From positions 1 through 37,794 of the IMG/VR virus record IMGVR_UViG_3300030110_002358: 37,794 nucleotides of DNA. The stretch is one strand, 5' to 3'. The DNA is from a virus. The position numbers and the translations under genes are program-made. The notes under the pieces were generated by a model. That model saw only the letters and a list, made by a program, of their open reading frames with translations, made no database searches and had not been told where the DNA came from. Positions 1-36,594 of the stretch are shown piece after piece. Positions within the stretch are counted from its first letter, which is position 1; every line of letters begins with the position of its first letter.

Positions 1-317
1 TTTATATATTTTGAGTATTCAATAGATAACTCTTTTTGATTTCTGTCCATATCTTTCCATTCATCAAAATTTTCTTCGTTATTGTGATTCCAAGGCTTGT
101 GTTGACAATCGTGTGTATATTCAAGGCTTATTTGACCTTTCCACCCTTCTGCGTGAAAACATTCACCTGAATCACCAGCTCCTTCATACCATACTCTAAT
201 ATACTTATATCCTAAGTCTTTAAAGTATTTATTTAAACTTTTTAATGATTTAGCTTGATTTATTCTTTTTGTTTTTCTTTCTTCGTACCACTTGTCTATA
301 TCAAATGTATATGACAT
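1..317 (-). CDS. Partial small phage protein with a GAGDSGE motif
   Basis: This minus-strand gene starts at 317 and runs off the left edge, so only its first 105 codons are seen and there is no stop. The start is set by an AGGAG ribosome binding site just upstream of the ATG. The protein begins MSYTFDIDKWYEERKTK and continues with a helical, basic stretch. It then has VWYEGAGDSGECFHAEGW, followed by residues rich in His, Asn, Trp and Asp. The GxGDSG motif after a beta-strand resembles small uncharacterised phage/plasmid families such as DUF6878 (from memory, not searched). It is the last visible gene of the minus-strand array and is preceded by a long hairpin with a T run. The function is unknown. 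Confidence 0.75.
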   Translation of the reverse strand, partial: MSYTFDIDKWYEERKTKRINQAKSLKSLNKYFKDLGYKYIRVWYEGAGDSGECFHAEGWKGQISLEYTHDCQHKPWNHNNEENFDEWKDMDRNQKELSIEYSKYI

Positions 318-347
318 ATTATCTCCTTTATTTTATTAAAAATAGTG

Positions 348-419
348 AAAAAAAAGAGATTATAAGCCCTTGCTCGGTAGTCGTATTTCATACTCACGTG
401 AGACTCATAGGGCTTATAA
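348..419 (-). terminator. Long hairpin with T run (minus strand)
   Basis: Arms 360-369 and 410-419 are perfectly complementary (TTATAAGCCC with GGGCTTATAA). They enclose a 40-nt loop that contains its own palindrome CTCACGTGAG (393-402). Reading the minus strand, TCTC and eight T residues (348-355) follow the hairpin, as in an intrinsic terminator. The loop is longer than in a standard terminator, so it could also be a processing structure. It would end any RNA transcribed from the 421-661 region. Confidence 0.6.
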
Positions 420-420
420 A

Positions 421-661
421 CTTTGGGGCGATCCATCTGTTATTTAGAGGTGTTTTTAGTGATCAGCCAAGTCGTCCCCCGACCATATGTCTACAATATG
501 ATTATCGTATCATTGATATAATGTTTAGCTATCTTACACCAATATAGCTATTGAAAATACCTAGGTCATTATCCTTACCCCGTCGTAACAGGTTGGACTA
601 AGTTTTGGCATACTTTATGAGTAGTTCTGCAGATACTTTAAACTCAACTGTTAGGTATGCC
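421..661. ncRNA. Possible structured RNA in a gene-poor gap
   Basis: Positions 321-669 hold no convincing gene. A 92-codon open frame crosses this stretch on the plus strand, but it lacks a ribosome binding site, has an odd composition and overlaps the start of the 317 gene. The segment 421-480 is about half G+C by count, clearly above its surroundings. It can fold: GGGGCGA near 425 pairs with TCGTCCCC near 472 with one bulge, an AGCTAT/ATAGCT hairpin lies near 527-549, and GGCATAC (607-613) pairs with GTATGCC (655-661). The minus-strand terminator at 348-419 would form its 3' end. No tRNA or other known RNA class was recognised. The strand is inferred to be minus. Confidence 0.3.
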
Positions 662-669
662 AGCCAATT

Positions 670-876
670 TTAAGAAACTAGTTTTAATCTGTTTTTAGCA
701 TATACTACTTTTGAAGACAACATTCTTTGATCTTCTGAGTATTTACCAGACATAATTATCTTTTGAACGCTTCTGTGTTCTCTGATATATGATCTAAGTT
801 CGTTTTTAGTCATAATTCTAATTTCATCAAACGGATTTGTGTTTTCTGTTAAAATTCTTAACCATTTTGATCGCAT
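670..876 (-). CDS. Small basic protein of unknown function (68 aa)
   Basis: The ATG at 876 is chosen because a strong GGAGG site sits just upstream. A TTG further upstream in the same frame (888) would place that site inside the coding region. The product begins MRSKWLRILTENTNPFDEIR and is rich in Arg and Lys, with predicted helices around MTKNELRSYIREHRSVQKII. No known domain was recognised. It is one cistron of the minus-strand array, preceded by the terminator-like hairpin at 895-925 and followed by the foldable region 421-661. A small basic helical protein in an early-gene array could bind nucleic acid or a host factor, but this is only a guess. Confidence 0.75.
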   Translation of the reverse strand: MRSKWLRILTENTNPFDEIRIMTKNELRSYIREHRSVQKIIMSGKYSEDQRMLSSKVVYAKNRLKLVS

Positions 877-894
877 TTTAACCTCCAAGTTATT

Positions 895-925
895 AAAAAA
901 AAAGAGAACATTATTTCAGCTCTCT
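895..925 (-). terminator. Intrinsic-terminator-like hairpin (minus strand)
   Basis: On the minus strand AGAGAGC pairs with GTTCTCT (one G-U pair) and is followed by nine T residues (895-903). It lies between the stop of the 935-1081 gene and the ribosome binding site of the 670-876 gene. About twenty bases remain before the next start codon, too few for a promoter. Confidence 0.7.
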
Positions 926-934
926 TTTCTTTTT

Positions 935-1081
935 TTAATGAGTATCTTCTGGATATGTATTTTCATTCATCCATTCAGCCCAACAATCCCACTCTTTGCA
1001 TAAATATTCATATTTAGCGTAGTAGTTTTCATATTTTGTGCCTTTTATTTCTTCTCCGCATTGAACACATTTATCAGGCAT
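935..1081 (-). CDS. Zinc-ribbon-like mini-protein (48 aa)
   Basis: A GGAG site lies six bases before the ATG at 1081, and the start overlaps the end of the upstream gene (ATGCCTGA), suggesting translational coupling. The 48-residue product starts MPDKCVQCGEEIKG and holds four cysteines, C5-x2-C8 and C28-x4-C33, a layout typical of a single zinc-binding knuckle or ribbon. The rest is rich in Tyr, Trp and acidic residues (WDCWAEWMNENTYPEDTH). Small proteins of this kind in phage early regions often bind host proteins or nucleic acid, but no specific function can be assigned. It is followed by the hairpin at 895-925. Confidence 0.75.
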   Translation of the reverse strand: MPDKCVQCGEEIKGTKYENYYAKYEYLCKEWDCWAEWMNENTYPEDTH

Positions 1082-1334
1082 CTTTAACTCCTAATACAGG
1101 TAATACATCTTCTGATTTTTCTGTAAGACAAGTTAAAACACCACCGTCATTACCTTCGTCATCTTGCATAGCTATAACTCTTGTGCCGTTATCTAGTATG
1201 AATGTAATTGGTCTTTTATACCACATATATTTATTGCATTCTTTACTTGTCATATACTCTACTTTTACGATTTTTCTATTCAATAAACGTTTTTTAGCAT
1301 ATTTAGTCCATTGATCTGTAAGATTTTTTGTCAT
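1074..1334 (-). CDS. Conserved small phage protein with DDEGNDGG motif (86 aa)
   Basis: The ATG at 1334 is preceded by GAGG with good spacing. The product has a basic N-terminus (MTKNLTDQWTKYAKKRLLNR) and then IVKVEYMTSKE, YKRPITFILDNGTRVIAMQ, DDEGNDGGVLTC and a C-terminal PVLGVKDA. The pattern 'KIVKVxYM...W...P..xLDxGT.......DDEGNxGG' is recalled from uncharacterised phage and bacterial proteins, where it looks like a small beta-rich fold with a conserved DDEGN loop. The function is unknown. The gene is coupled to the zinc-ribbon gene that overlaps its 3' end, the only junction in this array without a hairpin between cistrons. Confidence 0.8.
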   Translation of the reverse strand: MTKNLTDQWTKYAKKRLLNRKIVKVEYMTSKECNKYMWYKRPITFILDNGTRVIAMQDDEGNDGGVLTCLTEKSEDVLPVLGVKDA

Positions 1335-1351
1335 TTTAACCTCGAATAATT

Positions 1352-1401
1352 AAAAAAAAAGAGAACACTATCCATAGATTGCTCCATAGATAGTGTTCTC
1401 T
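1352..1401 (-). terminator. Strong intrinsic terminator (minus strand)
   Basis: A 13-bp perfect stem (1360-1372 with 1389-1401) is followed on the minus strand by nine T residues (1352-1360). It lies directly after the stop of the 1408-1701 gene and just before the ribosome binding site of the 1074-1334 gene. It is a near copy of the hairpin at 2638-2682, sharing the GAACACTAT arm. Confidence 0.85.
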
Positions 1402-1407
1402 GTTAGA

Positions 1408-1701
1408 TTAGAATGGTGTTGCACTCAAATCTATTTCTACCATATCATCTTCATTATTTAGAGTATTTCTCCAAATATTCCAAGATTTTCCAGATTCAGA
1501 TAGATTTATATTACCTTTAAATTCCAATCTTTGTTTAATTGTATCTAATACTATTGGATGTGGATCTTCTGTATTAGATAAATTATTAGTTTCAATTGGA
1601 ACAGATATAAAATCTACATCTTCAGTTACTGATTTGTGAAATATATTATCTTCTCCGTCTATCATTTGTATTGCATTGAACTTTATTTTATTGTTAGACA
1701 T
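1408..1701 (-). CDS. Acidic protein of unknown function (97 aa)
   Basis: AGGAG lies just upstream of the ATG at 1701. The product is acidic, begins MSNNKIKFNAIQMIDGED and ends NNEDDMVEIDLSATPF. The middle part predicts as beta strands (DVDFISVPIE, QRLEFKGNINL, KSWNIWRNTL). There are no cysteines, membrane segments or recognisable motifs. It is the longest complete gene of the minus-strand array, bounded by hairpins on both sides. A short acidic beta-rich protein with an aromatic C-terminus could be a single-strand-DNA mimic or an inhibitor, but nothing in the sequence proves that. Confidence 0.75.
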   Translation of the reverse strand: MSNNKIKFNAIQMIDGEDNIFHKSVTEDVDFISVPIETNNLSNTEDPHPIVLDTIKQRLEFKGNINLSESGKSWNIWRNTLNNEDDMVEIDLSATPF

Positions 1702-1729
1702 ATTGTCTCCTTGTTAGTTAATTTATTAT

Positions 1730-1757
1730 AAAAAAAGAGAATACGTTTTTTAAACGT
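1730..1757 (-). terminator. Weak hairpin plus T run (minus strand)
   Basis: ACGTTT pairs with AAACGT over a three-base loop (1743-1757), followed on the minus strand by ATTCTC and seven T residues. The stem is AT-rich and lacks the usual AGAG partner, so it looks like a degenerate copy of the array's standard element. It sits just before the ribosome binding site of the 1408-1701 gene. Confidence 0.5.
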
Positions 1758-1773
1758 TGGGTTTTATAACGTG

Positions 1774-1799
1774 AAAAAAGAGCAGACTTACGTCCACTC
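1774..1799 (-). terminator. Hairpin overlapping a gene end (minus strand)
   Basis: GAGTGGAC pairs with GTCTGCTC (two G-U pairs, loop GTAA), followed by six T residues (1774-1779). The 5' arm is made of the last sense codons of the 1788-1934 gene and its stop codon lies in the loop, so coding and terminator functions share bases. Confidence 0.65.
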
Positions 1800-1934
1800 C
1801 TTTATACATTCATCACAAATTAATTCATCTTCATTGGTTATATTTAAATCATCTAATTTAAGCATATCAGTACAAATGCTACATTCTTTCCATTGATTTA
1901 ACCATTCATTTAATAATACTTTAAATTCTTGCAT
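1788..1934 (-). CDS. Zinc-ribbon-like mini-protein (48 aa)
   Basis: The start at 1934 follows an AGAGG ribosome binding site. The product begins MQEFKVLLNEWLNQWKECSI and has two cysteine pairs, C18-x2-C21 and C40-x2-C43, separated by an acidic stretch (DDLNITNEDEL). This is a textbook spacing for a four-Cys zinc ribbon. The N-terminal 17 residues form an amphipathic helix rich in Leu and Trp that could contact a partner. It is flanked by the hairpins at 1774-1799 and 1954-1988. The function is unknown; host RNA polymerase or nuclease inhibitors are plausible but unproven. Confidence 0.75.
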   Translation of the reverse strand: MQEFKVLLNEWLNQWKECSICTDMLKLDDLNITNEDELICDECIKEWT

Positions 1935-1953
1935 AATTACCTCTTTTTATTAT

Positions 1954-1988
1954 AAAAAAGGAGGAAGGCACCGAATTAACGATGCCTT
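1954..1988 (-). terminator. Intrinsic terminator (minus strand)
   Basis: A nine-pair stem, AAGGCATCG with CGGTGCCTT (1980-1988 with 1965-1973, one G-U), has a six-base loop. It is followed on the minus strand by CCTCC and six T residues. It lies just upstream of the ribosome binding site of the 1788-1934 gene. Confidence 0.75.
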
Positions 1989-2036
1989 TTATTATGAAGA
2001 ATTGTAGGATAAAGGAATATAATGATTATTATACAC

Positions 2037-2060
2037 AAAAAAAGAGCAAGCTGTTGCTCA
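2037..2060 (-). terminator. Intrinsic terminator (minus strand)
   Basis: GAGCAA pairs with TTGCTC over a four-base loop (2045-2060), followed by eight T residues (2037-2044). It lies 17 bases after the stop of the 2078-2320 gene. The 48 bases between this and the next hairpin hold no start codon on the minus strand and no visible gene. Confidence 0.75.
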
Positions 2061-2077
2061 CTCTTTTAATTGATTTT

Positions 2078-2320
2078 TTACAGTTCATCGCCATTTACTT
2101 TATATGAATTAGTAATTAAATGATGACCTAGTAATTTCTTTAGTTCATATCTAACATTACCTAATTTATGGTAATAATTATTTAAATCTTCTGAACTATT
2201 ATTAGTTTCGGTTTTATAAGCACCTACACTTTTATTAGAATTTATTGTTTCTCTTAATATTTCTACATAAGCTATTAATTTATACAATTTAACATCTACA
2301 ACGTCTTTTAAATCTTCCAT
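2078..2320 (-). CDS. Helical protein of unknown function (80 aa)
   Basis: AGGAG precedes the ATG at 2320. The product starts MEDLKDVVDVKLYKLIAYVE and predicts as two or three helices with a polar, Asn/Ser-rich linker (SVGAYKTETNNSSEDLNN). A second helix follows (YYHKLGNVRYELKKLLGHH). There are no cysteines and no recognised domain. It sits in the hairpin-separated minus-strand array between two Cys-rich mini-protein genes. A two-helix hairpin of this size is compatible with a small regulator or inhibitor, but the function is unknown. Confidence 0.75.
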   Translation of the reverse strand: MEDLKDVVDVKLYKLIAYVEILRETINSNKSVGAYKTETNNSSEDLNNYYHKLGNVRYELKKLLGHHLITNSYKVNGDEL

Positions 2321-2347
2321 TGAACACTCCTATTCTTTAATTATTGT

Positions 2348-2377
2348 AAAAAAAGAGCATAACATTAGTCATACTCT
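2348..2377 (-). terminator. Hairpin overlapping a gene end (minus strand)
   Basis: AGAGTAT pairs with ATGCTCT (one G-U), followed by seven T residues (2348-2354). The 5' arm is the end of the 25-codon gene at 2365-2442, so the coding end doubles as terminator stem. It sits just before the ribosome binding site of the 2078-2320 gene. Confidence 0.7.
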
Positions 2378-2442
2378 TCATCACAATTAGGACATTTAGT
2401 AGAATACTTAGATTCTTCTTTATAACCACAGCAGCAAGTCAT
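2365..2442 (-). CDS. Tiny Cys-rich protein (25 aa)
   Basis: The minus-strand ATG at 2442 follows AGAGG with normal spacing, and the frame closes at 2365. The 25-residue product is MTCCCGYKEE followed by SKYSTKCPNCDEEYD. It has five cysteines: C3-C4-C5 and C17-x2-C20. CPNC followed by acidic residues is the typical second half of a zinc ribbon, and CCCGY the first half, so this looks like a stripped-down zinc ribbon. It is too short for usual gene callers. Support comes from the ribosome binding site, from its fit to the array's gene-hairpin spacing, and from the terminator formed by its own 3' end. Confidence 0.6.
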   Translation of the reverse strand: MTCCCGYKEESKYSTKCPNCDEEYD

Positions 2443-2461
2443 ATATACCTCTATTTTCTAG

Positions 2462-2491
2462 AAAAAAAGAGCAAACGTTTATGTTTACTCT
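2462..2491 (-). terminator. Intrinsic terminator (minus strand)
   Basis: AGAGTAAAC pairs with GTTTGCTCT (nine pairs, one G-U, six-base loop). It is followed by seven T residues (2462-2468). It separates the 2497-2616 remnant from the 25-aa gene. Confidence 0.8.
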
Positions 2492-2496
2492 TTAAA

Positions 2497-2616
2497 TTAT
2501 ATTACCTTACTTATACCCGTTTGTAAGTTTTCTCTGTCTTCTTTTTCACTATAGTTACAGTATTTAAACGATAAATTTATCATTTAAGCCAGGTTTATTG
2601 TTAATTTTATGTTCAT
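2497..2616 (-). pseudogene. Tiny gene split by an in-frame stop
   Basis: A start at 2616 with an AAAAGG site encodes MNIKLTINLA and then TAA (2584-2586). The very next codon, in the same frame, is ATG (2583), which opens a 28-codon frame (MINLSFKYCN, then YSEKEDRENLQTGISKVI) that ends at 2497. Without the stop this would be one 39-codon gene of the size usual in this array. It may be a nonsense-interrupted gene, or two coupled mini-genes in which the second start is used by reinitiation. The second ATG has no good ribosome binding site. No domain is recognisable. Confidence 0.4.
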
Positions 2617-2637
2617 TATTTTACCTTTTATTACTAC

Positions 2638-2682
2638 AAAAAAAGAGAACACTATACATAGATTACTCTACATATAGTGTTC
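2638..2682 (-). terminator. Strong intrinsic terminator (minus strand)
   Basis: GAACACTATA pairs with TATAGTGTTC (2647-2656 with 2673-2682), with extra pairing inside. On the minus strand it is followed by CTC and a run of seven T residues. It is nearly the same as the hairpin at 1352-1401, showing that the element is repeated. Confidence 0.85.
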
Positions 2683-2689
2683 ACGTTAA

Positions 2690-2839
2690 TTAGACCATTT
2701 CACGCAGTTTATTACGCATTCCTTTAAAGCCTGTAATAAAGCCACAAGTAACAATAGCGGTAACGTTGCCAACTGTTTCAAATGTTTTGAATGTGTATTT
2801 AGCAGCTTTACCTTTAGCTTGTTTATAGTTTACGTTCAT
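2690..2839 (-). CDS. Small basic protein with hydrophobic centre (49 aa)
   Basis: The ATG at 2839 has an upstream CGAGG site with slightly long spacing. The product starts MNVNYKQAKGKAAKYTFKTF and continues with VGNVTAIVTCGFITGF, a hydrophobic segment near the minimum length for a membrane helix. It ends with a basic tail (KGMRNKLREMV). Codon use here (CGT, CTG, GTC, ACC) differs from the AT-rich neighbours and hints at a different origin. The function is unknown. A small membrane-active or host-binding early protein is possible. Confidence 0.7.
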   Translation of the reverse strand: MNVNYKQAKGKAAKYTFKTFETVGNVTAIVTCGFITGFKGMRNKLREMV

Positions 2840-2869
2840 AATAATATACCTCGTTAGTTAACATAACAC

Positions 2870-2900
2870 AAAAAAAGAGCATACGTGTTAGGTATGCTCT
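2870..2900 (-). terminator. Intrinsic terminator (minus strand)
   Basis: A perfect nine-pair stem, AGAGCATAC with GTATGCTCT (2876-2884 with 2892-2900), has a seven-base loop. It is followed by seven T residues (2870-2876). The downstream context TTAACATAACACAAA is repeated near 3030-3045. Confidence 0.85.
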
Positions 2901-2905
2901 ATGTA

Positions 2906-3016
2906 TTATCCTCTCTTAACTATGAATATTTCTGTGAACCATTCAGGCATTTCATCAGGTAATTCAGGATTAGAAAGTATGATAGATTTAAATTCTTCAA
3001 CTGTTATAACGTACAT
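2906..3016 (-). CDS. Tiny acidic protein (36 aa)
   Basis: AAGGAG lies eight bases before the ATG at 3016, and the frame closes at 2906. The product starts MYVITVEEFKSIILSNPELP and ends DEMPEWFTEIFIVKRG. It is acidic, with one helix (VEEFKSIILSN) and a hydrophobic aromatic C-terminal strand. No domain is recognised. It is the first gene of the minus-strand array downstream of the divergent control region, so it is probably the earliest transcribed. Confidence 0.7.
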   Translation of the reverse strand: MYVITVEEFKSIILSNPELPDEMPEWFTEIFIVKRG

Positions 3017-3043
3017 TGTATTCTCCTTATATTAACATAACAC

Positions 3044-3065
3044 AAATAAAGAGTACATTAATGTA
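3044..3065 (-). other. Degenerate terminator-like element in the 5' leader
   Basis: The palindrome TACATTAATGTA (3054-3065) is followed on the minus strand by CTCTTTATTTG. It sits in the same position relative to the 2906-3016 gene as the hairpins ahead of the other genes. The T run is broken by an A. The flanking sequence TTAACATAACACAAA is shared with the leader of the 2690-2839 gene. Confidence 0.45.
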
Positions 3066-3285: not shown

Positions 3286-3322
3286 TTGATTTAGTACTCT
3301 CCCAGTATTATATTACTCTATG
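3286..3322 (+). promoter_or_regulatory. Candidate promoter giving a leaderless transcript
   Basis: TTGATT (3286-3291) is followed after 17 bases by TATATT (3309-3314). A start of transcription six to eight bases later would fall on the ATG at 3320. No ribosome binding site precedes that ATG, which agrees with a leaderless message. The 11-base core GTATTATATTA (3305-3315) recurs upstream of the portal gene at 5955-5965. Confidence 0.45.
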
Positions 3323-3711: not shown

Positions 3712-4485
3712 ATGGATCAGATTAAAAGAAGAATAGGTGGAAAAACAAGAGAATTTGTAATATACTCTAAAGATGAAGCAGATACTAAGGGATATGCTTA
3801 TATTGATTGGAGACATGCAGATAAAGGTGACTATGCCTTGTCAGATGATGGATATGTAGGTGAATGCCTTGATAGAAAGGTATATACAGACAAGAAAGGT
3901 AGGACTAAGACCTTTGTTAAGTGTGCGCATGGTGTGCAATGGGTTACAAATACAGGACAATTCCTATATGAGCCTAATAAAGAGATAGGTAACTACTCGC
4001 ACGTTAAGGCAAGGAGTTGGGTAGATAGGGAAGCCAAGACACAAAGAGCAAATAATGCAGTAAATGCATACGTTGCCAGTGTTATTGGGGGTGAGAAGCC
4101 TGATTGGGAAATGATTGGTAAGATATACAGACCAGATCAAAAGTTCCCAGAGGCTACAGTAAGAAGGTTGTTTAAGAAACAAAGGATACAAGATATGGTA
4201 GAAAAAAAATTAAAAGAAATATTACTAGATAAGGGTATTACTCAAGATCAAGTATTGGAATTGCAGTTAGAGGCTTTAAACCTTGCAAGGACTAAAGGTG
4301 ATATTTCTAATTTTTTAAAAGTAACTGATAGTTTTATGGACTTATTGCAAATGAAGCCAGGTAAAGTGGTAACTACAGATACTATGGAAATAGATATGAC
4401 TAGTAAAATACTAGATGCAATAGAAACAGAAGAAAAGAAAGTAAAGATGGAAAGAAAGGTTGAAGAACAAGAAGATATTAGATAA
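3712..4485 (+). CDS. terS: Terminase small subunit (probable)
   Basis: The 257-residue product precedes and overlaps the large terminase gene, the usual place for the DNA-recognition subunit of the packaging motor. A GGGGG ribosome binding site lies just before the ATG. The N-terminal 100 residues form a beta-rich region (DDGYVGECLDRKVYTDKKG). A helical domain follows with DWEMIGKIYRPDQKFPEATV, where successive helices resemble a DNA-binding unit. It ends with LEALNLARTKGDISNFLKVT and an acidic/basic coiled tail. Position, size and the helical oligomerisation-like segment support the call. It matches a TerS type recalled from marine phages with an extra N-terminal domain. The pac or cos recognition site is not visible. 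Confidence 0.7.
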   Translation: MDQIKRRIGGKTREFVIYSKDEADTKGYAYIDWRHADKGDYALSDDGYVGECLDRKVYTDKKGRTKTFVKCAHGVQWVTNTGQFLYEPNKEIGNYSHVKARSWVDREAKTQRANNAVNAYVASVIGGEKPDWEMIGKIYRPDQKFPEATVRRLFKKQRIQDMVEKKLKEILLDKGITQDQVLELQLEALNLARTKGDISNFLKVTDSFMDLLQMKPGKVVTTDTMEIDMTSKILDAIETEEKKVKMERKVEEQEDIR

Positions 4486-28458: not shown

Positions 28459-31400
28459 ATGTCTACATATGATGATAGAATATTAGAGTTAGTAAAGCAC
28501 TACAGATACAATCCTTATTTATATTCCGAACAACAAGTTGACGAGCTACAAAGATTAGCAGACGATAATAATGTTCCCTTTAATAGAAAAACTGATGACT
28601 TTAATTTTAGAAAAACTATGAGTCATTTAGTTGATGGGTTCTTTGAAGGGTTTACAACAATACCAGTTTCTACATTAAAAGGCGATCATCCTACTACAAC
28701 ATACGAATCAATAGCACATTCATTAGGGCATTTAGCAGGTTTTGCTCCAGGTATTATATCAGCACCATTAAAGCTAGGCGCTAAAGGTCTAGCTAAAATA
28801 GGTTTTGGAGAGCAAGCTAAAGATGCTTTGGGTAAGATTACTTATAAAGGTGCAGCTAGATATGTAGATGATGCAGCTGAAATTACAAGGGAAGCAAACC
28901 ATTGGTCAATACCTATGATATTTGGAGATATAGGTAAAAGAAAATTTCAACAAGGTTTAGAGGTTAGTAAATTACAATCATTAGATTTTTTAAAGAAAGG
29001 TGCAGGTGCTAGATCAGTATTAGAACAAGCAGTTCATTTAGGTACAGCAAGTGCAGTTTCTTCTGTATGGAAAGGTCCTGATGAAATGATGCATTCTGCA
29101 TATAGTGGTGCTATAGCAGGTGGTGCATTTGGAGGATTAGGAGAAGTAAGAATGATAGGAAACTATCTTAAATCTAAAAATCCTAGTACATATAGAAAAG
29201 GTGAGCAAAGAGTTAAGTCAGCTATAGGTGCAGCTATGCTTGGAGTTCCTACAGCACTACAAGGTGAACCTATAGAAATGATTATGTATCAGACGCTTTT
29301 AGGCGGTTATTTTGGATATGGATCTAGACCTTCTATGGAGGCAGAAGGTGGCAAATTCATACAAAGATTACAATATGAAGGTGATAAGAAGTTTATATTT
29401 CGTCCTACTCAACATCCTAGGTGGGATAAATACTCTACAGGCGCTCAAGAGTATATAAAAAAGGAAGTTACTGAAGGTTCTAAAGATTATTTATATAGAC
29501 AATTTAATTACTTAGGTTATGATAAAGACTATGTTAATGCTGAAGTCACTAGAAAAGCTAGAGAATCAGAAGGATTAGGAGCTAACGATCCACTACCTCA
29601 AGAAAAATTAGATGCATTCTTTAGAAGCGAAGCACATGATTTTTATATGTCAGGTCCTGGTTCTAAGAAATCTTCTGAAATACATATTCATAAAGATTTA
29701 ACAGATGCATTGTCAGATGCAGAACAACAAATGGATGCTAATGATCCAGTAGATTTAACTCCAACTCCTAAGAAAAAGAAGGGTGAACCTAAAACTAACG
29801 CTCAGGAAATGAAAGAACGTGAAAATGACGTTGATATATTTGCTGCAGGTTATGATCCTACTACAGGTAATGTTACTATAATAGGTGGTATTGATAGAAA
29901 GAAGATAGGTTTTAGGGGGGATTACGAAGGAACTGTTAACGGAGAAAGCAGAGTTAACAGACCTTCTGATGTTTTAGAAAATACACAGTATATTACTTGG
30001 GATGGCGTTTTTATAAAAGATTCTAAAACAGGCAAGTATACTAAATATAAACCATTGTCTTACGGAACTACTAAAAACGCTTCTACAGATTGGAAGACAA
30101 GTACTACTAAAAATGTAGATACTAAACTTCTATGGAAAATAGAAAGTAAACTACACGAATCTGGTAGATATTTATACGGTGGTATTAAAGATAAAGGTAT
30201 ACTTACTATTAGAGAATACCATGCAGATGCTAATAGATACACTAATGAACAGCTTATTAAAGCCTTATCAGAAAGAGATTCTATTAGATCATATGCACAA
30301 ATAAGAAAATCTTTATTAGATAGTAGAAATGAATGGATGAGTTATTACAAGTTTGATTCATCAGCAGATAAGCAATATATAATAGACAGACATGATAAAA
30401 GCTGGAGATCTAATATATTAGCAGAAGCTGAAAGAAATGGATTATATGAACAAAAAGATTTAAGTAATATACATAATTTAATGACTGACGGTTATTCTAA
30501 GAATGTAGTTGATTGGAATAAAAGAGAGCAATTATATAACGACAAGTCAATGCCACTTCCTAAAGATACATTAGGTACTTTAAAAAGCGCAATATTTACA
30601 GAAAACTTTTTAGACGTATCTAAGAATCAGTATATAAATATAAAAGGTGAAAGAGAATATTTTGATAGTGATACAGATGGAACTATATATTTCTTACAAA
30701 AAGATATAGACATTATGTATGATAGATTAGGTTTAAAAGAGAAATGGAAAGACAGTCAATATAGTGATGTCAATCCTTCTATGATAAAACCAGTTATTAT
30801 AGTTAAAACACCAATGGGTACTATGATAGTTAAAGCAGCTGGCAGAGGTGCTAGTAAGCCCTTAGAACAATATATGATTAATAATGGATTAAGATCTGTT
30901 ATAATGAAATCTGCTACAAAACATACTGGTTCTATAGGAGGTCCTAATGGTGAAAGATTTAATACTTTTAATATAGATAAACTAAAACAAAGAGTATATG
31001 AACATGAAGGCAATTTAAATACATTAGATATTAATGAAGCAGATATTAGAATTAATTTAGGTACTTTTGAAAATCCTGCTACTGCATTAAAAAAGCAGAA
31101 GATAGCAAGACAGCTTGCTAGTAATTTAAATCAAGGACAAGCTGGAGGAGCTTTAGAAGCTCTTTGGAAAGAAGTTTACCTTCCTAATATAGAAGGCGAT
31201 CCGAATGTAAACAAAGCTATCAAGAATTATGTAGAAAGCGAAGGCTGGATGCAGAAAACATTTGGATATAAAAAGTTTAAAGTTGATGATTTAGATATAA
31301 ATATAATACATGATATATTAACTAAACACGGTAATACAGAGTTAGCTAAAGATATAGCAAGACAAATTGCTAGACAGGATAAGAAAGGCCAATTAGAAGA

Positions 31401-34400
31401 TGTAGATAATTTTACACCAGAACAATATCAGCAATACGTTTATAGAAATAATAGAATATTAGATTCTGCTGATTTTTCTCAATCATTAAGAGAGATTAAT
31501 TTAGGAAATTCTAGACAATTTTTTGAAAATGTTTATAAGAAATATCTAGTTACTAGAGCTTATGCTCCTAAATATAAATACTCATCTAAAGGTTGGTTAG
31601 CTCCTAAAGATCCTCATTTATTATTAAGTACTAAAGATATTAAAGATGGACACTTTATGTTAGACAGAGATATGGGTAAAATGACAGTTAATTATAAAGG
31701 GAAAGATAGAAAATTAGAGGAGGCATGGAATGATTATGTTAAAAATGGTAAGCCAAAAAGTGAAGCTAATGCTTTCGATTTTCTTGTTATTCGTGTTCCT
31801 GCCGATAGTATTTCTGGGACTAGGGTTCTTAAGTTTGATGGCTTTACCACCCAAAAAGGAGTGTCCATTACTACTAATGCAAAGGATAATGCATACTTAG
31901 GTGGTGCAGATAAAGATAGTGATAGTGCTTTTTTATATCAAAATATGCCAAGGAAAGTTGTAGATGCTGTTAAAAAACAACAAGATCAATGGTCTAAAGA
32001 CAATAGATGGATAGACGGAAAGTCTGAAGTATTTGATCCAGTTTTTGGAGCATCAGGCAATCAAGCATATAATACAATTGAAAGTAAGTTTTCTCCTTCT
32101 ATGAGAAGAATAGTTGCAGACTCAGCTGCAAAGGGACAGAAGGGATTAGGTTATGGAGTTGTAGCTAAAGATAACTTATTAGGTATTGCAGATTTTTTAA
32201 AAGGAAAAGGTGCAGTTACTTTTTCAATGAATTCTCCTAAAGGTAAATACCTAGGTAAGGTTACTTTAGAGTTAAAACCAAATGGACATAATATATTAGC
32301 AAGGTTAGGAAGAGAGGTTGTTAATCGTTCTGCTGATGCAGCTAACTATCCTAAGATGATTGATTTTACAGACCTTCCTAATATTATGTTAAACAGTGCT
32401 TTTAATATGAAAGGTGTTAAGCTAGGTAAAAAAATGAAAGAAGTTACTTACGATGATTTAGCAAATACATCTTTAAATGCAATATTTGATGCTAGAGCAA
32501 AAATAAGTTCTAGTAATAAAACATCATTTCCTTTATGGCAAAGAAGTATAAACCAGTTAAATGATTTAAATTCTTTTCCTACACTTTCTTCTAGAGTTGC
32601 AGAAAGATTAAACCAAGCAATGGTTGATTCTAAAGGTGATATGAAAATCTTTAATGATGTTAAAGTTTTAGAAAACTTAAATAAAGCAATGAGTGAAAGT
32701 GTTAAGCAGTATATAAGAAATAAGAATACTAATCCAGCATATAGAGTTTTAACTCAATTAAATTTTAAACTACAAGCAAAGCCTTATGGTAATTATAGCC
32801 AAATGAGATATAAAGTTGAAAGAGATTTTGAACAGCTTACTTCTTGGAACGCTATTGCTAAATCAGGAAATGATATATATGCAGCGTTAAAGAAAATGGG
32901 TTATGGTGATAAAGCAATACAAGAATTAGATGTAAATATATTAAGCAAGATAGCAAAAACAGCTGAAACTATTAAAAAAAGAACTAGACAATTTCATCCA
33001 GATTCAGAAGTTAAAAATGAATTTGGTGAAATAGTACATTCTTCTAGCGAATACTTTGATAAACAAGTTTTAGATTATAAGAATGGATCTTTAAACAAGT
33101 TAGTAAAACAATACGATAAAAGACACGGAAAGGATAATCTTATAAATTCTGATATGCTTCACAAATATTTTGATATGTGGTTGTTAAGTCCATTTGTAAG
33201 AACTAAATCTACTGATACAAGTTTTAGTAAGATACCTTTTCAATCTAAAAGCATAAATCAAAAATCATTAGAATATTATACTAAGCAGCATAATGATTTG
33301 TTCCAATCTATAATAGGAACTGTTACTGGTAAAAAGCCAAAAGAAAAAGCTCTTTTTGATATGGAAACTTTTGATTATAAAACTCCTAAAAAACAAGCTC
33401 AAGAAGATATTATAGATAAAGCTATAAATAAAACTCCAGATGTTAAGAAAAATCCTAACGAATCTTTAAGTGATTTATTTAGAAGAAAGGCTTTAACTAA
33501 AGATCAGTTTGATTTAGTAAAAGATTTTGAAAGAAGACTTGATAATAATCAGCATATAAGAGATAATTTTAAAGATTTTTATGAAAACTTTATTATTGAA
33601 GTTGCAGGAGGTCCAGCTAAGGATATAAGTTTAATTGATATAAAAGATATAAATGCAATTAACAGATATATGAAAGATATGGATAATAGATTTACTAAAG
33701 CTGGTACTAAATTACCTGACTTTGTTTGGAGAGCATCTCCAGAATATGTTGATTTATATATGAGAAATTTTGAAAACAAATACTTTGCTACTTTTCAAGA
33801 GAATGTAAAGACTAAAGAAGGATTTGTTAAAAGAACAATTAGAAAATACACTGGCACTTTAGGTATCATAAAAGATTATGTACACAAAACTACTAGCGAA
33901 ATTGAAAGACAGACAGGTAAAGTAGAAGAGTTTAATGACAGAGCTTATATACACAGGAATCTTCCTGTTAAAGAAGCAGAAGGTATTAGTGAATTAATAT
34001 TCTTAAAACGTGAAGGTGTGGATTATAAATCTACTGACTTATATAAACAGCTTAATAAAAAGTCTTTTAATATAAGAAACAAAGAACGATCATTAGATGA
34101 AATTATAGAAAGAGATAATAATAAGTATACTGAGCAGTTTGAGAATTTTAGTAAAAAATATATACACGCTACAGATAACAAAGGGAATTATATAGATTTT
34201 TCACAGATAGATGTTAAAAACAAATACGGCAAATATAGCAAGTATTTATCTTGGGATAAGGATGGTAAGTTTAATGCAAAAAACTTCGAAAAAGCTATAA
34301 TGTCGGACGTTATGAAGGGTAAGGGTATTCCTGAAGTACCTATAGAAGTTATTTTAAGAGCATCTTATGAGTTAATGTTAGAAACTCAAATTAATAATAA

Positions 34401-36594
34401 GACTTATAAAAAGAGCATGTCTTTAAAACAACGTAGAGAACAATTTAGAAAGAAAGTAAAATTCAATCCTATAGGTAGATTTGAATTTGATACATATATA
34501 CCTCATATTAATTTTGGAAGAAATAAAAAGAGTAGAGAAGTTATTGATAAATGGATTAATGAAAGAGTTCAAGAAGTATATGATAAGACACTATCAGATA
34601 CAGGTAGTGTTAAGAAAGCAGAGAGAATGGCTAAACTTAAAAGATTAAGTTATGAGATAATGCAAGATAGATCTACTTCTGAAGATTTAGGAATGAGTAG
34701 TGTTACAACAGAATCTGTTATGTACGATTTTTCTAAGATGAGTATAAAAGATATAGATAGTACGCTTCTTAATCACAGACCAGGCTCTGCATTAGAAAGA
34801 CACGCTGATATGCCTGGCTGGGATAGAACACATAATGCAATTGACTTTTATAAAAAAGGTATATTTACTGCAATGTATAAAGCAATGAGTGGTTATCAAT
34901 CTAAAAAATCAATAATGAATTTTGAGAAAGAAGCTGCATTTGGAGAGAACACTGCAGACTGGGCTTTATATTTAAAATCATATTACAGAGATTCAATGGG
35001 ATTACCTACAATATTTGGTAATCAAATGCATAGGTTTATAAAAGCTGATAAAAATACTACTACTATATTAGGTGTTGATGCTGAACCAGTGATGAGTAAA
35101 TTATTTGGACCTAAATTTAAACGTAGAGGTTTTTATTTAACTAGTGATCAAGCAGTTATAGAAGCAAATAGTAAAATTAATAATTGGTTTAAAAAGCACG
35201 GAAGACAACTTCCTTGGATGAGTAAAGTTCCTGAAATGCCTAAAGAAAGTTTAAAGAAAAGCGATCCAGTGTTATATGAAAAAATGTATCAAGCACACAT
35301 GTCTGCTATGTCAAGAATAGTTCACAATATGGGAAGAGTTGAAGCTAAGTTCAATCTTTTAACTATATTAGGACATCCTAAATTATATGTCGGGAATTTA
35401 TTTGGTGGAACTACTAATACTATTACAAGAGCTGGTCTTAAAAACTTTATGCGTTCTTACGATAAAAAGTGGATTAAGAACAATTTATTAGTTAATGAAA
35501 AAGGTGAGTACAAATTAAGATTTAAAGATGGTAGCTCTGTTAAGAATAAGAAAGATTTAGATAAATGGATAGCAGAAAAAGGAATTATAGAATCGTTTAT
35601 TACTAACGAGCTTAACTTAAATATTGGATTGAGAGATGCTAGAGGTATAGCTAAACAAAACTTAAAAGATTTTTCTAAAGATTTAAAATCTAAGTTAAAG
35701 AAAGATCCTGATATGAATGATAATACCATTCTCGAATTAGCTAAGAAATATAAAGTTGACAAACTTCTTATAGATAATGCAGCAGTATTTATGCAGTCAT
35801 CAGAAAGAAAGTTAAGAAGAGACTCTTTTTTATCACATGCTATTAAATATATGGAAGTATATGGTAAGGATGGATTAAGATTAAATTTAGATGATCCAGC
35901 TGTTATGGAAGCTGGGTTAAAAGGAGTAGAAGCAACTCAGTTTGTTTATCATAGTTCTTTTAGGCCAGGCTATATGAGAACTTCCTTGGGAAAAGTATTA
36001 TCTCGTTTTAAATTATTTGTATTTAATTCGGTAAGAGTTCGTAAAGAAATGCTAAGAAAAGCTAAATACTACGGATTTGAACCAGGCACAGAGCAGTTTG
36101 AAAGGTTTAAGACAGACTTTCAAATTAATATGTTTATAGCTGCACTTGCCTCTGCTTTTGCATATAGTTTATTCGATACTAGTTTACCACCTCCTTACGA
36201 TTGGGTTCAAGAAACTGGAGAGTGGTTATTAGGAGACAAGAAAGAAAGAGATAAAGCCTTTTTTGGTCAATGGCCTTATCCTGTAGCTCCTTTAAATATA
36301 GTAACACCTCCAGTAGCTAGATTACCAATGTCATTCTTTGGTAGTTTAATAAATAATGACTGGGATAGGTTTATGGATTATCAAGTTTATACAATGTTTC
36401 CATTTGGTAGAATGATTAGATCTGCAGATAAAATTGTTGATGAACCTTATGGAACAATAGAGGGTAGAGCAATGCAACAAATTTTTGGGTTACCTTTAGA
36501 TACTGTTAGAAGTAAAATTAAGAGAGCTAATGTGTTAGCTCAAAGAAAAGAGTTAATTGACAAAGAACTGTCTGATATGACAGAAGGAGAATAA
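28459..36594 (+). CDS. Giant virion protein with RNA-polymerase-like DxDxD module (2711 aa)
   Basis: N-terminal residues 1-300 match the start of large polyvalent phage proteins: EQQVDELQRLADDNNVPF, VDGFFEGFTTIP, IAHSLGHLAGFAPG, then Gly-rich hydrophobic stretches (YSGAIAGGAFGGLGE). Residues 1107-1160 hold R1112-V-P-A-D, VLKFDGF and GGAD1151-K-D-S-D1155. The order R-x-P, a strand ending in GF, and then G-x-D-x-D-x-D is that of the catalytic barrel of two-barrel RNA polymerases (cellular NADFDGD; crAss-like phage RNA polymerase GSDFDID). MKSATKHTG (816-824) may mark the partner barrel with its lysines. Near 2305 is GHPKLYVGNLFGG, and near 2555-2575 a membrane-like segment (NMFIAALASAFAYSLF). 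It is probably packaged in the head and ejected. Polymerase activity is inference. Confidence 0.7.
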   Translation: MSTYDDRILELVKHYRYNPYLYSEQQVDELQRLADDNNVPFNRKTDDFNFRKTMSHLVDGFFEGFTTIPVSTLKGDHPTTTYESIAHSLGHLAGFAPGIISAPLKLGAKGLAKIGFGEQAKDALGKITYKGAARYVDDAAEITREANHWSIPMIFGDIGKRKFQQGLEVSKLQSLDFLKKGAGARSVLEQAVHLGTASAVSSVWKGPDEMMHSAYSGAIAGGAFGGLGEVRMIGNYLKSKNPSTYRKGEQRVKSAIGAAMLGVPTALQGEPIEMIMYQTLLGGYFGYGSRPSMEAEGGKFIQRLQYEGDKKFIFRPTQHPRWDKYSTGAQEYIKKEVTEGSKDYLYRQFNYLGYDKDYVNAEVTRKARESEGLGANDPLPQEKLDAFFRSEAHDFYMSGPGSKKSSEIHIHKDLTDALSDAEQQMDANDPVDLTPTPKKKKGEPKTNAQEMKERENDVDIFAAGYDPTTGNVTIIGGIDRKKIGFRGDYEGTVNGESRVNRPSDVLENTQYITWDGVFIKDSKTGKYTKYKPLSYGTTKNASTDWKTSTTKNVDTKLLWKIESKLHESGRYLYGGIKDKGILTIREYHADANRYTNEQLIKALSERDSIRSYAQIRKSLLDSRNEWMSYYKFDSSADKQYIIDRHDKSWRSNILAEAERNGLYEQKDLSNIHNLMTDGYSKNVVDWNKREQLYNDKSMPLPKDTLGTLKSAIFTENFLDVSKNQYINIKGEREYFDSDTDGTIYFLQKDIDIMYDRLGLKEKWKDSQYSDVNPSMIKPVIIVKTPMGTMIVKAAGRGASKPLEQYMINNGLRSVIMKSATKHTGSIGGPNGERFNTFNIDKLKQRVYEHEGNLNTLDINEADIRINLGTFENPATALKKQKIARQLASNLNQGQAGGALEALWKEVYLPNIEGDPNVNKAIKNYVESEGWMQKTFGYKKFKVDDLDINIIHDILTKHGNTELAKDIARQIARQDKKGQLEDVDNFTPEQYQQYVYRNNRILDSADFSQSLREINLGNSRQFFENVYKKYLVTRAYAPKYKYSSKGWLAPKDPHLLLSTKDIKDGHFMLDRDMGKMTVNYKGKDRKLEEAWNDYVKNGKPKSEANAFDFLVIRVPADSISGTRVLKFDGFTTQKGVSITTNAKDNAYLGGADKDSDSAFLYQNMPRKVVDAVKKQQDQWSKDNRWIDGKSEVFDPVFGASGNQAYNTIESKFSPSMRRIVADSAAKGQKGLGYGVVAKDNLLGIADFLKGKGAVTFSMNSPKGKYLGKVTLELKPNGHNILARLGREVVNRSADAANYPKMIDFTDLPNIMLNSAFNMKGVKLGKKMKEVTYDDLANTSLNAIFDARAKISSSNKTSFPLWQRSINQLNDLNSFPTLSSRVAERLNQAMVDSKGDMKIFNDVKVLENLNKAMSESVKQYIRNKNTNPAYRVLTQLNFKLQAKPYGNYSQMRYKVERDFEQLTSWNAIAKSGNDIYAALKKMGYGDKAIQELDVNILSKIAKTAETIKKRTRQFHPDSEVKNEFGEIVHSSSEYFDKQVLDYKNGSLNKLVKQYDKRHGKDNLINSDMLHKYFDMWLLSPFVRTKSTDTSFSKIPFQSKSINQKSLEYYTKQHNDLFQSIIGTVTGKKPKEKALFDMETFDYKTPKKQAQEDIIDKAINKTPDVKKNPNESLSDLFRRKALTKDQFDLVKDFERRLDNNQHIRDNFKDFYENFIIEVAGGPAKDISLIDIKDINAINRYMKDMDNRFTKAGTKLPDFVWRASPEYVDLYMRNFENKYFATFQENVKTKEGFVKRTIRKYTGTLGIIKDYVHKTTSEIERQTGKVEEFNDRAYIHRNLPVKEAEGISELIFLKREGVDYKSTDLYKQLNKKSFNIRNKERSLDEIIERDNNKYTEQFENFSKKYIHATDNKGNYIDFSQIDVKNKYGKYSKYLSWDKDGKFNAKNFEKAIMSDVMKGKGIPEVPIEVILRASYELMLETQINNKTYKKSMSLKQRREQFRKKVKFNPIGRFEFDTYIPHINFGRNKKSREVIDKWINERVQEVYDKTLSDTGSVKKAERMAKLKRLSYEIMQDRSTSEDLGMSSVTTESVMYDFSKMSIKDIDSTLLNHRPGSALERHADMPGWDRTHNAIDFYKKGIFTAMYKAMSGYQSKKSIMNFEKEAAFGENTADWALYLKSYYRDSMGLPTIFGNQMHRFIKADKNTTTILGVDAEPVMSKLFGPKFKRRGFYLTSDQAVIEANSKINNWFKKHGRQLPWMSKVPEMPKESLKKSDPVLYEKMYQAHMSAMSRIVHNMGRVEAKFNLLTILGHPKLYVGNLFGGTTNTITRAGLKNFMRSYDKKWIKNNLLVNEKGEYKLRFKDGSSVKNKKDLDKWIAEKGIIESFITNELNLNIGLRDARGIAKQNLKDFSKDLKSKLKKDPDMNDNTILELAKKYKVDKLLIDNAAVFMQSSERKLRRDSFLSHAIKYMEVYGKDGLRLNLDDPAVMEAGLKGVEATQFVYHSSFRPGYMRTSLGKVLSRFKLFVFNSVRVRKEMLRKAKYYGFEPGTEQFERFKTDFQINMFIAALASAFAYSLFDTSLPPPYDWVQETGEWLLGDKKERDKAFFGQWPYPVAPLNIVTPPVARLPMSFFGSLINNDWDRFMDYQVYTMFPFGRMIRSADKIVDEPYGTIEGRAMQQIFGLPLDTVRSKIKRANVLAQRKELIDKELSDMTEGE

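Follow-up and report, generated by a model that had tools for sequence, protein, structure and literature searches.

How can the distal genes of an apparent phage operon be transcribed when a terminator-like hairpin follows nearly every gene? The question is raised by IMG/VR virus record IMGVR_UViG_3300030110_002358, which we analyzed as a single window of 37.8 kb (37,794 nt). An earlier note on this DNA had described, between positions 348 and 3065, an array of minus-strand mini-genes separated by ten hairpins with T-runs and one degenerate copy. It had proposed that polymerase must either read through by antitermination or that the hairpins are RNA processing or stability elements. The genes for terminase, portal, and major head protein lie on the plus strand of the window. 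No close isolate was found by DNA search, and searches with terminase and portal gave distant matches only; the portal matches were weak and, among six, included two phages of alphaproteobacteria. The relatives used for comparison are IMG/VR contigs, which we take to be marine from their sample numbers; the group is uncultured and probably marine. The closest relative, L003, is 99.8% identical to the window over 6 kb and reaches 2 kb further left.

Hairpins followed by T-runs close most genes of the array

Using a strict rule (a hairpin plus T-run at -8 kcal/mol or better), we found nine elements on the minus strand of positions 348 to 3065 and none on the plus strand (Table 1), compared with a mean of 0.4 and a maximum of 2 in 200 dinucleotide shuffles of the same region. 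Elsewhere in the genome, a loose detector returned mostly long ragged stems with short T-runs. Nine strict elements and the weaker copies together make the earlier count essentially right, and a hairpin does sit at almost every junction, the exception being 1081/1074, where the genes overlap. One of the described hairpins has to be reclassified, as the last element, at 348, is instead a structured RNA module of about 60 nt (RNA-C) followed by a T-run. The gap to the next start codon, put at 15 to 30 bases in the earlier note, is indeed short (22 to 36 nt) at most junctions but reaches 65, 77, and 105 nt at three.

Table 1. Elements of the early array and its upstream region, in the order of minus-strand transcription after the plus-strand promoter
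Feature	Position	Strand	Remarks
Probable promoter of plus-strand operon, TTGATT-17-TATATT	3286-3314	plus	consensus match; conserved in relatives, best score 7.16
Candidate -10 (TAGAAT) of early array promoter, without a good -35	3275-3270	minus	inferred; conserved TTTAGAATG block; weak score 3.16
Leader hairpin H2, candidate antitermination RNA	3227-3158	minus	folding z, strand stability, basal-stem covariation
Terminator-like hairpin	2900-2876	minus	5 nt past stop of gene 3016-2906
Terminator-like hairpin, 16 bp	2682-2647	minus	
Terminator-like hairpin	2493-2466	minus	
Terminator-like hairpin	2378-2353	minus	overlaps end/stop codon of gene 2442-2365
Terminator-like hairpin	2067-2040	minus	
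RNA-E, conserved noncoding stretch	2048-1960	minus	ends in weak hairpin 1988-1965
Weaker hairpin, interrupted T-run	1988-1965	minus	ends RNA-E
Terminator-like hairpin	1800-1779	minus	overlaps end/stop codon of gene 1934-1788
Degenerate hairpin, then TTTTTTT	near 1763-1733	minus	read from sequence
Strongest terminator-like hairpin, 19 bp, -28.1 kcal/mol	1401-1360	minus	slot kept in relatives with other sequences
Terminator-like hairpin	929-899	minus	5 nt past stop of gene 1081-935
RNA-A, closed by GGCATAC/GTATGCC	666-604	minus	conserved in relatives
RNA-B, conserved structured RNA	604-421	minus	found in relatives; no Rfam match
RNA-C (420-360) plus eight-T run	420-348	minus	closing helix covaries in ten homologs
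Eight-T run closing RNA-C	355-348	minus	

The stems in the window are mostly 9 to 12 bp long, with two at 16 and 19 bp, and each simple element places a stable hairpin directly before a T-run on the transcribed strand, as expected of an intrinsic terminator. Their d'Aubenton-type scores are all positive in the window phage, several of them weak (median, 22 over 57 elements from the relatives' scan described below). The claim that the arms differ in sequence but remain paired, which was drawn from changes between hairpins of one genome, is borne out: for the inner five pairs of eight simple stems, 38 of 40 cells were paired, compared with 26.6 when the 3' arms were dealt among the hairpins, and 2 of 40,320 such permutations reached 38 (arms were registered by hand, and location of the hairpins by folding biases these tests towards pairing).

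The layout recurs in relatives with different stem sequences

Conservation in related phages and covariation of the hairpins, which the earlier note had named as checks, both came out in favor of the element. Before duplicate removal, a scan of 23 contigs, some of them near-duplicates, gave 64 strict elements for the array strand and 7 for the opposite one; 57 nonredundant elements were left afterwards. The most constant property, missed in the earlier note, is the short distance from the stop codon to the start of the stem (median, 6 nt for elements with an assigned upstream gene); nine of the 57 overlap the gene end. The distance to the next start codon is looser, at 22 to 38 nt in about half of the cases and longer otherwise. 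A T-run (median length, 7) comes after the core stems and an A-run (median, 2) before them; because the T-run was a selection criterion, the evidence for this asymmetry comes from the shortness of the A-run and from the counts per strand.

At a single orthologous slot, the one that follows the family of window gene 1701-1408, a hairpin and T-run are present in each of the 10 members, with very different sequences. When six classes of these sequences are compared, 53 of 54 cells are paired, a value reached by 4 of 720 permutations (mean, 41.5) that ignore phylogeny. In the distant relatives L016 to L018 (terminase identity, about 75%), the layout persists with different stems. Some junctions in other phages have overlapping genes or a larger RNA module in place of the hairpin, and five contigs (L026 to L028, L031, and L033) have zero terminators by the strict rule. 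A literature search on phages with a terminator after every gene found nothing relevant.

Another reading is that the hairpins serve mainly as recombination boundaries for the swapping of mini-genes. The window phage (in its L003 version) and L025 are 97% identical until 9 nt past hairpin 1401-1360, where different genes begin. However, breakpoints fall at hairpins in 9 of 77 cases, with 5.9 expected, which is no clear enrichment, and the stem sequences differ between junctions. We therefore regard this explanation as very improbable.

The simple hairpins are probably intrinsic terminators

The alternative of RNA processing or 3'-end stability holds that the hairpins mark sites where a single long message is cleaved or trimmed, without termination. 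Hairpins adjoining stop codons protect 3' ends, and the array hairpins sit in just that position; moreover, structured RNA modules without a T-run fill the same kind of junction. However, a long T-run is needed for termination and not for a stability hairpin, and stems of 9 to 12 bp, the length of most of those found here, are short for RNase III. The strand asymmetry, the long T-run, and the mostly short stems together favor intrinsic terminators over double-strand cleavage sites. Judged from these sequence properties, the simple hairpins are likely intrinsic transcription terminators, and processing or stability as their main role is unlikely.

If so, genes beyond them must still be reached. 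The longest relative consists of L013 joined to L286, which are parts of the same contig. Its array-strand genes run on to those for a DUF932 protein, an annealing protein of the ERF type, and a helicase like DnaB, and 11 strict terminators precede ERF (8.7 kb) and the helicase (10.9 kb) on the same strand. With replication genes downstream on the same strand, either read-through or undetected promoters are needed. Thus, of the two roles offered in the earlier note, the need for read-through gains support from these genes, and the leader hairpin described below offers a candidate for antitermination, whereas cleavage loses ground to termination.

Internal promoters of an unrecognized type could restart transcription past each terminator and make each mini-gene its own unit. 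Similar sequence follows many of the T-runs (ATGTATAA or ATGTTAAC), and a conserved block follows one terminator. Against this, sigma-70 promoters, tried as candidates, showed no enrichment at 32 junctions (mean z, -0.27), a result which also backs the earlier remark that there is little room for promoters, and usually just 22 to 38 nt are left before the start codon. We consider internal promoters slightly less plausible than processing. An N4-like virion polymerase with hairpin promoters is also conceivable; a giant protein of 2402 aa has no match in PHROGs. A second giant protein, of 2711 aa, is encoded at positions 28459 to 36594 of the window (plus strand) and has no Pfam or PHROGs match. 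A boxA-like motif (TGCTCTTT) at many stems was rejected as a signal because CTCT plus T already produces it and the distant relatives L016 and L018 do not retain it.

A conserved leader hairpin is a candidate antitermination RNA

Comparison across relatives revealed a conserved block between the array and the divergent plus-strand operon. It contains a long hairpin, H2, whose upper stem is invariant across phages and whose basal stem changes yet pairs in 62 of 70 cells; with arms registered by hand, 2 of 5,040 arm reassignments reach that value, the true one included. The folding z of H2 is -4.5 on the array strand and -3.4 on the plus strand. H2 is more stable on the array strand in 8 of 11 phages (total, -374 versus -345 kcal/mol, with more G-U pairs), and in a longer segment that includes its flanks the plus strand is the more stable. 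A leader acting on the plus strand was rejected because H2 is less stable there in total, though not in every phage; H2 likely, though not certainly, works on the array strand. If transcription starts at the candidate promoter, a conserved structured RNA lies close to the beginning of the early transcript. The conservation and covariation of H2 would fit a put-like RNA, but they would fit other leader functions as well. No antitermination RNA family in Rfam matches the window at an E value of 5 or less. On the basis of these comparisons, we assign H2 a role in antitermination only tentatively.

On the other side of the block, the -10 element of the plus-strand promoter is very near the ATG at 3320. 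Over positions 3286 to 3322 (plus), promoter and start codon are so close that the mRNA could be leaderless.

Antitermination and ribosome occlusion may together carry polymerase through the array

The best single account, to which we assign a probability of roughly 45%, combines terminators, leader antitermination, and ribosome occlusion. The mini-genes would form the promoter-proximal part of an early operon that host RNA polymerase transcribes and that continues, as in the longest relatives, into genes for recombination and replication. Each simple hairpin would close the preceding mini-gene and give it a discrete 3' end. The leader hairpin, made just after the start, would turn the polymerase terminator resistant, as HK022 put RNA or conAn2 do. 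A terminating ribosome, a route that the earlier note did not consider, would partly hide a stem lying a few nucleotides past the stop codon, so that polymerase could pass. Transcripts begun elsewhere or poorly translated would stop at the next hairpin, leaving each mini-gene insulated.

Known systems provide precedents for several of these steps. Terminators within an operon are usually a sign of processive antitermination, and with conAn, from pLS20-family conjugative plasmids, polymerase gets past more than 20 of them in a plasmid operon (PMC8955417). The array resembles conAn in that many intrinsic terminators lie within an apparent operon that has an element at its start. It differs in that these are phage early genes rather than conjugation genes, with terminators at nearly every gene; in addition, the RNA element is unrelated by search, and no conserved ConAn1-like first protein was seen by eye, the first array genes differing among L003, L010, and L013. 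In HK022, put RNA makes host polymerase resistant to terminators at least 10 kb away (PMC9378689), and there too a structured RNA lies just downstream of an early phage promoter, with terminators before early genes. For the leader described here, no Rfam match or sequence relation was found, and it is a long hairpin preceded by a smaller C/G-rich one, a layout that may differ from the put fold; its antitermination activity is putative.

Several observations count against the combined account. The leader is like put only in general layout and prefers the array strand modestly (8 of 11 phages); the search for a promoter of the array yielded no good one, and some relatives lack strict terminators. 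A phage polymerase is also possible: a search for the T7-type single-subunit enzyme (PF00940) gave no match in 10 contigs, and the control genomes gave none either, so its absence is not proven. Moreover, several window stems are weak, and leaky termination alone might therefore suffice.

This closest rival, which we consider appreciably less likely than the combined account, dispenses with dedicated antitermination. It predicts a falling gradient along the array, with ribosome occlusion giving most of the read-through. It accords with the low scores of some window stems and with the few nucleotides between stop codon and stem, since in Escherichia coli ribosomes repress a terminator located several base pairs past a gene almost completely (PMC4824070). 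However, it leaves the conserved, covarying leader hairpin unexplained, and ten or more leaky terminators in series would still cut expression of the distal genes strongly. The same stop-to-stem spacing could reflect either ribosome gating or an uncoupled host, and in the latter case it would mean efficient termination. In the review account of Johnson 2020 (PMC7858274), Bacillus subtilis terminators lie a few nucleotides past stop codons, which is taken to indicate that transcription is uncoupled. The short distance is shared with the array; there the spacing is that of a known host, whereas here the terminators belong to an apparent phage operon.

If it holds, early phage genes that nearly all end in a terminator, together with a leader RNA that is conserved and covaries, would open two questions to testing: are there protein-free antitermination RNAs other than put and EAR, and do ribosomes in nature gate terminators that fall within their footprint?

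Structured RNA modules occupy some junctions

The junctions also contain RNA modules that show conservation and covariation and have no entry in Rfam; one of them is common in viral contigs. RNA-A, RNA-B, and RNA-C adjoin one another at positions 348 to 666 (minus strand), in the gap that separates a 68-aa gene from the next, and each recurs at other junctions in relatives. In the closing helix of RNA-C, which covaries strongly, 28 cells are changed on both sides among ten homologs, versus 8.0 ± 2.4 in shuffles and at most 8 when slid. After one gene family, a simple hairpin is found in the window phage and RNA-C in L006 and L023. RNA-B is 98.4% identical over 191 nt between L033 (about 800 to 990) and L035 (7347 to 7535), where its neighbors differ, as if the RNA itself had moved. 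RNA-E follows one terminator and contains the inverted repeat TATAAY-4-RTTATA, with changes in both of its arms; in relatives it ends in GGCTTCCTC plus T.

RNA-D (GAGAGCCAATAACTGGTCCT...AAAGGAATATGTGAGGCTCTC) is a conserved junction RNA found in L003 at 277 to 336 (minus) and in many of the contigs L049 to L162, for a count of at least 100 viral contigs. Its outer helix covaries, and 14 of 110 copies among the matches listed have a T-run. One occurrence is in a bin labeled 'Flavobacteriales', but strong Shine-Dalgarno sites speak against a Bacteroidota host; the other three genome matches of the RNA-D 18-mer lack the rest of the element. In L003, the early region also carries a spore photoproduct lyase-like radical SAM gene (363 to 1226, minus; PF20903, E = 2.3e-24).

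It is conceivable, though rather unlikely, that the leader hairpin represents a new class of RNA that brings about processive antitermination without protein, and that RNA-A to RNA-E are likewise new, exchangeable intercistronic RNAs that share slots with terminators and help to divide the early message. RNA-A to RNA-E have no match among Rfam covariance models, no known ribozymes or riboswitches were found, and a search for isolated phages carrying RNAs of these types found none. They share with GOLLD and the large ornate phage RNAs (RF02032; PMC12286853) the property of being large structured RNAs in phage intergenic regions, but are shorter and belong to no Rfam family. One relative, L031, has a GOLLD match near such genes (3722 to 4151; E = 7.7e-46) and also carries RNA-A and RNA-B.
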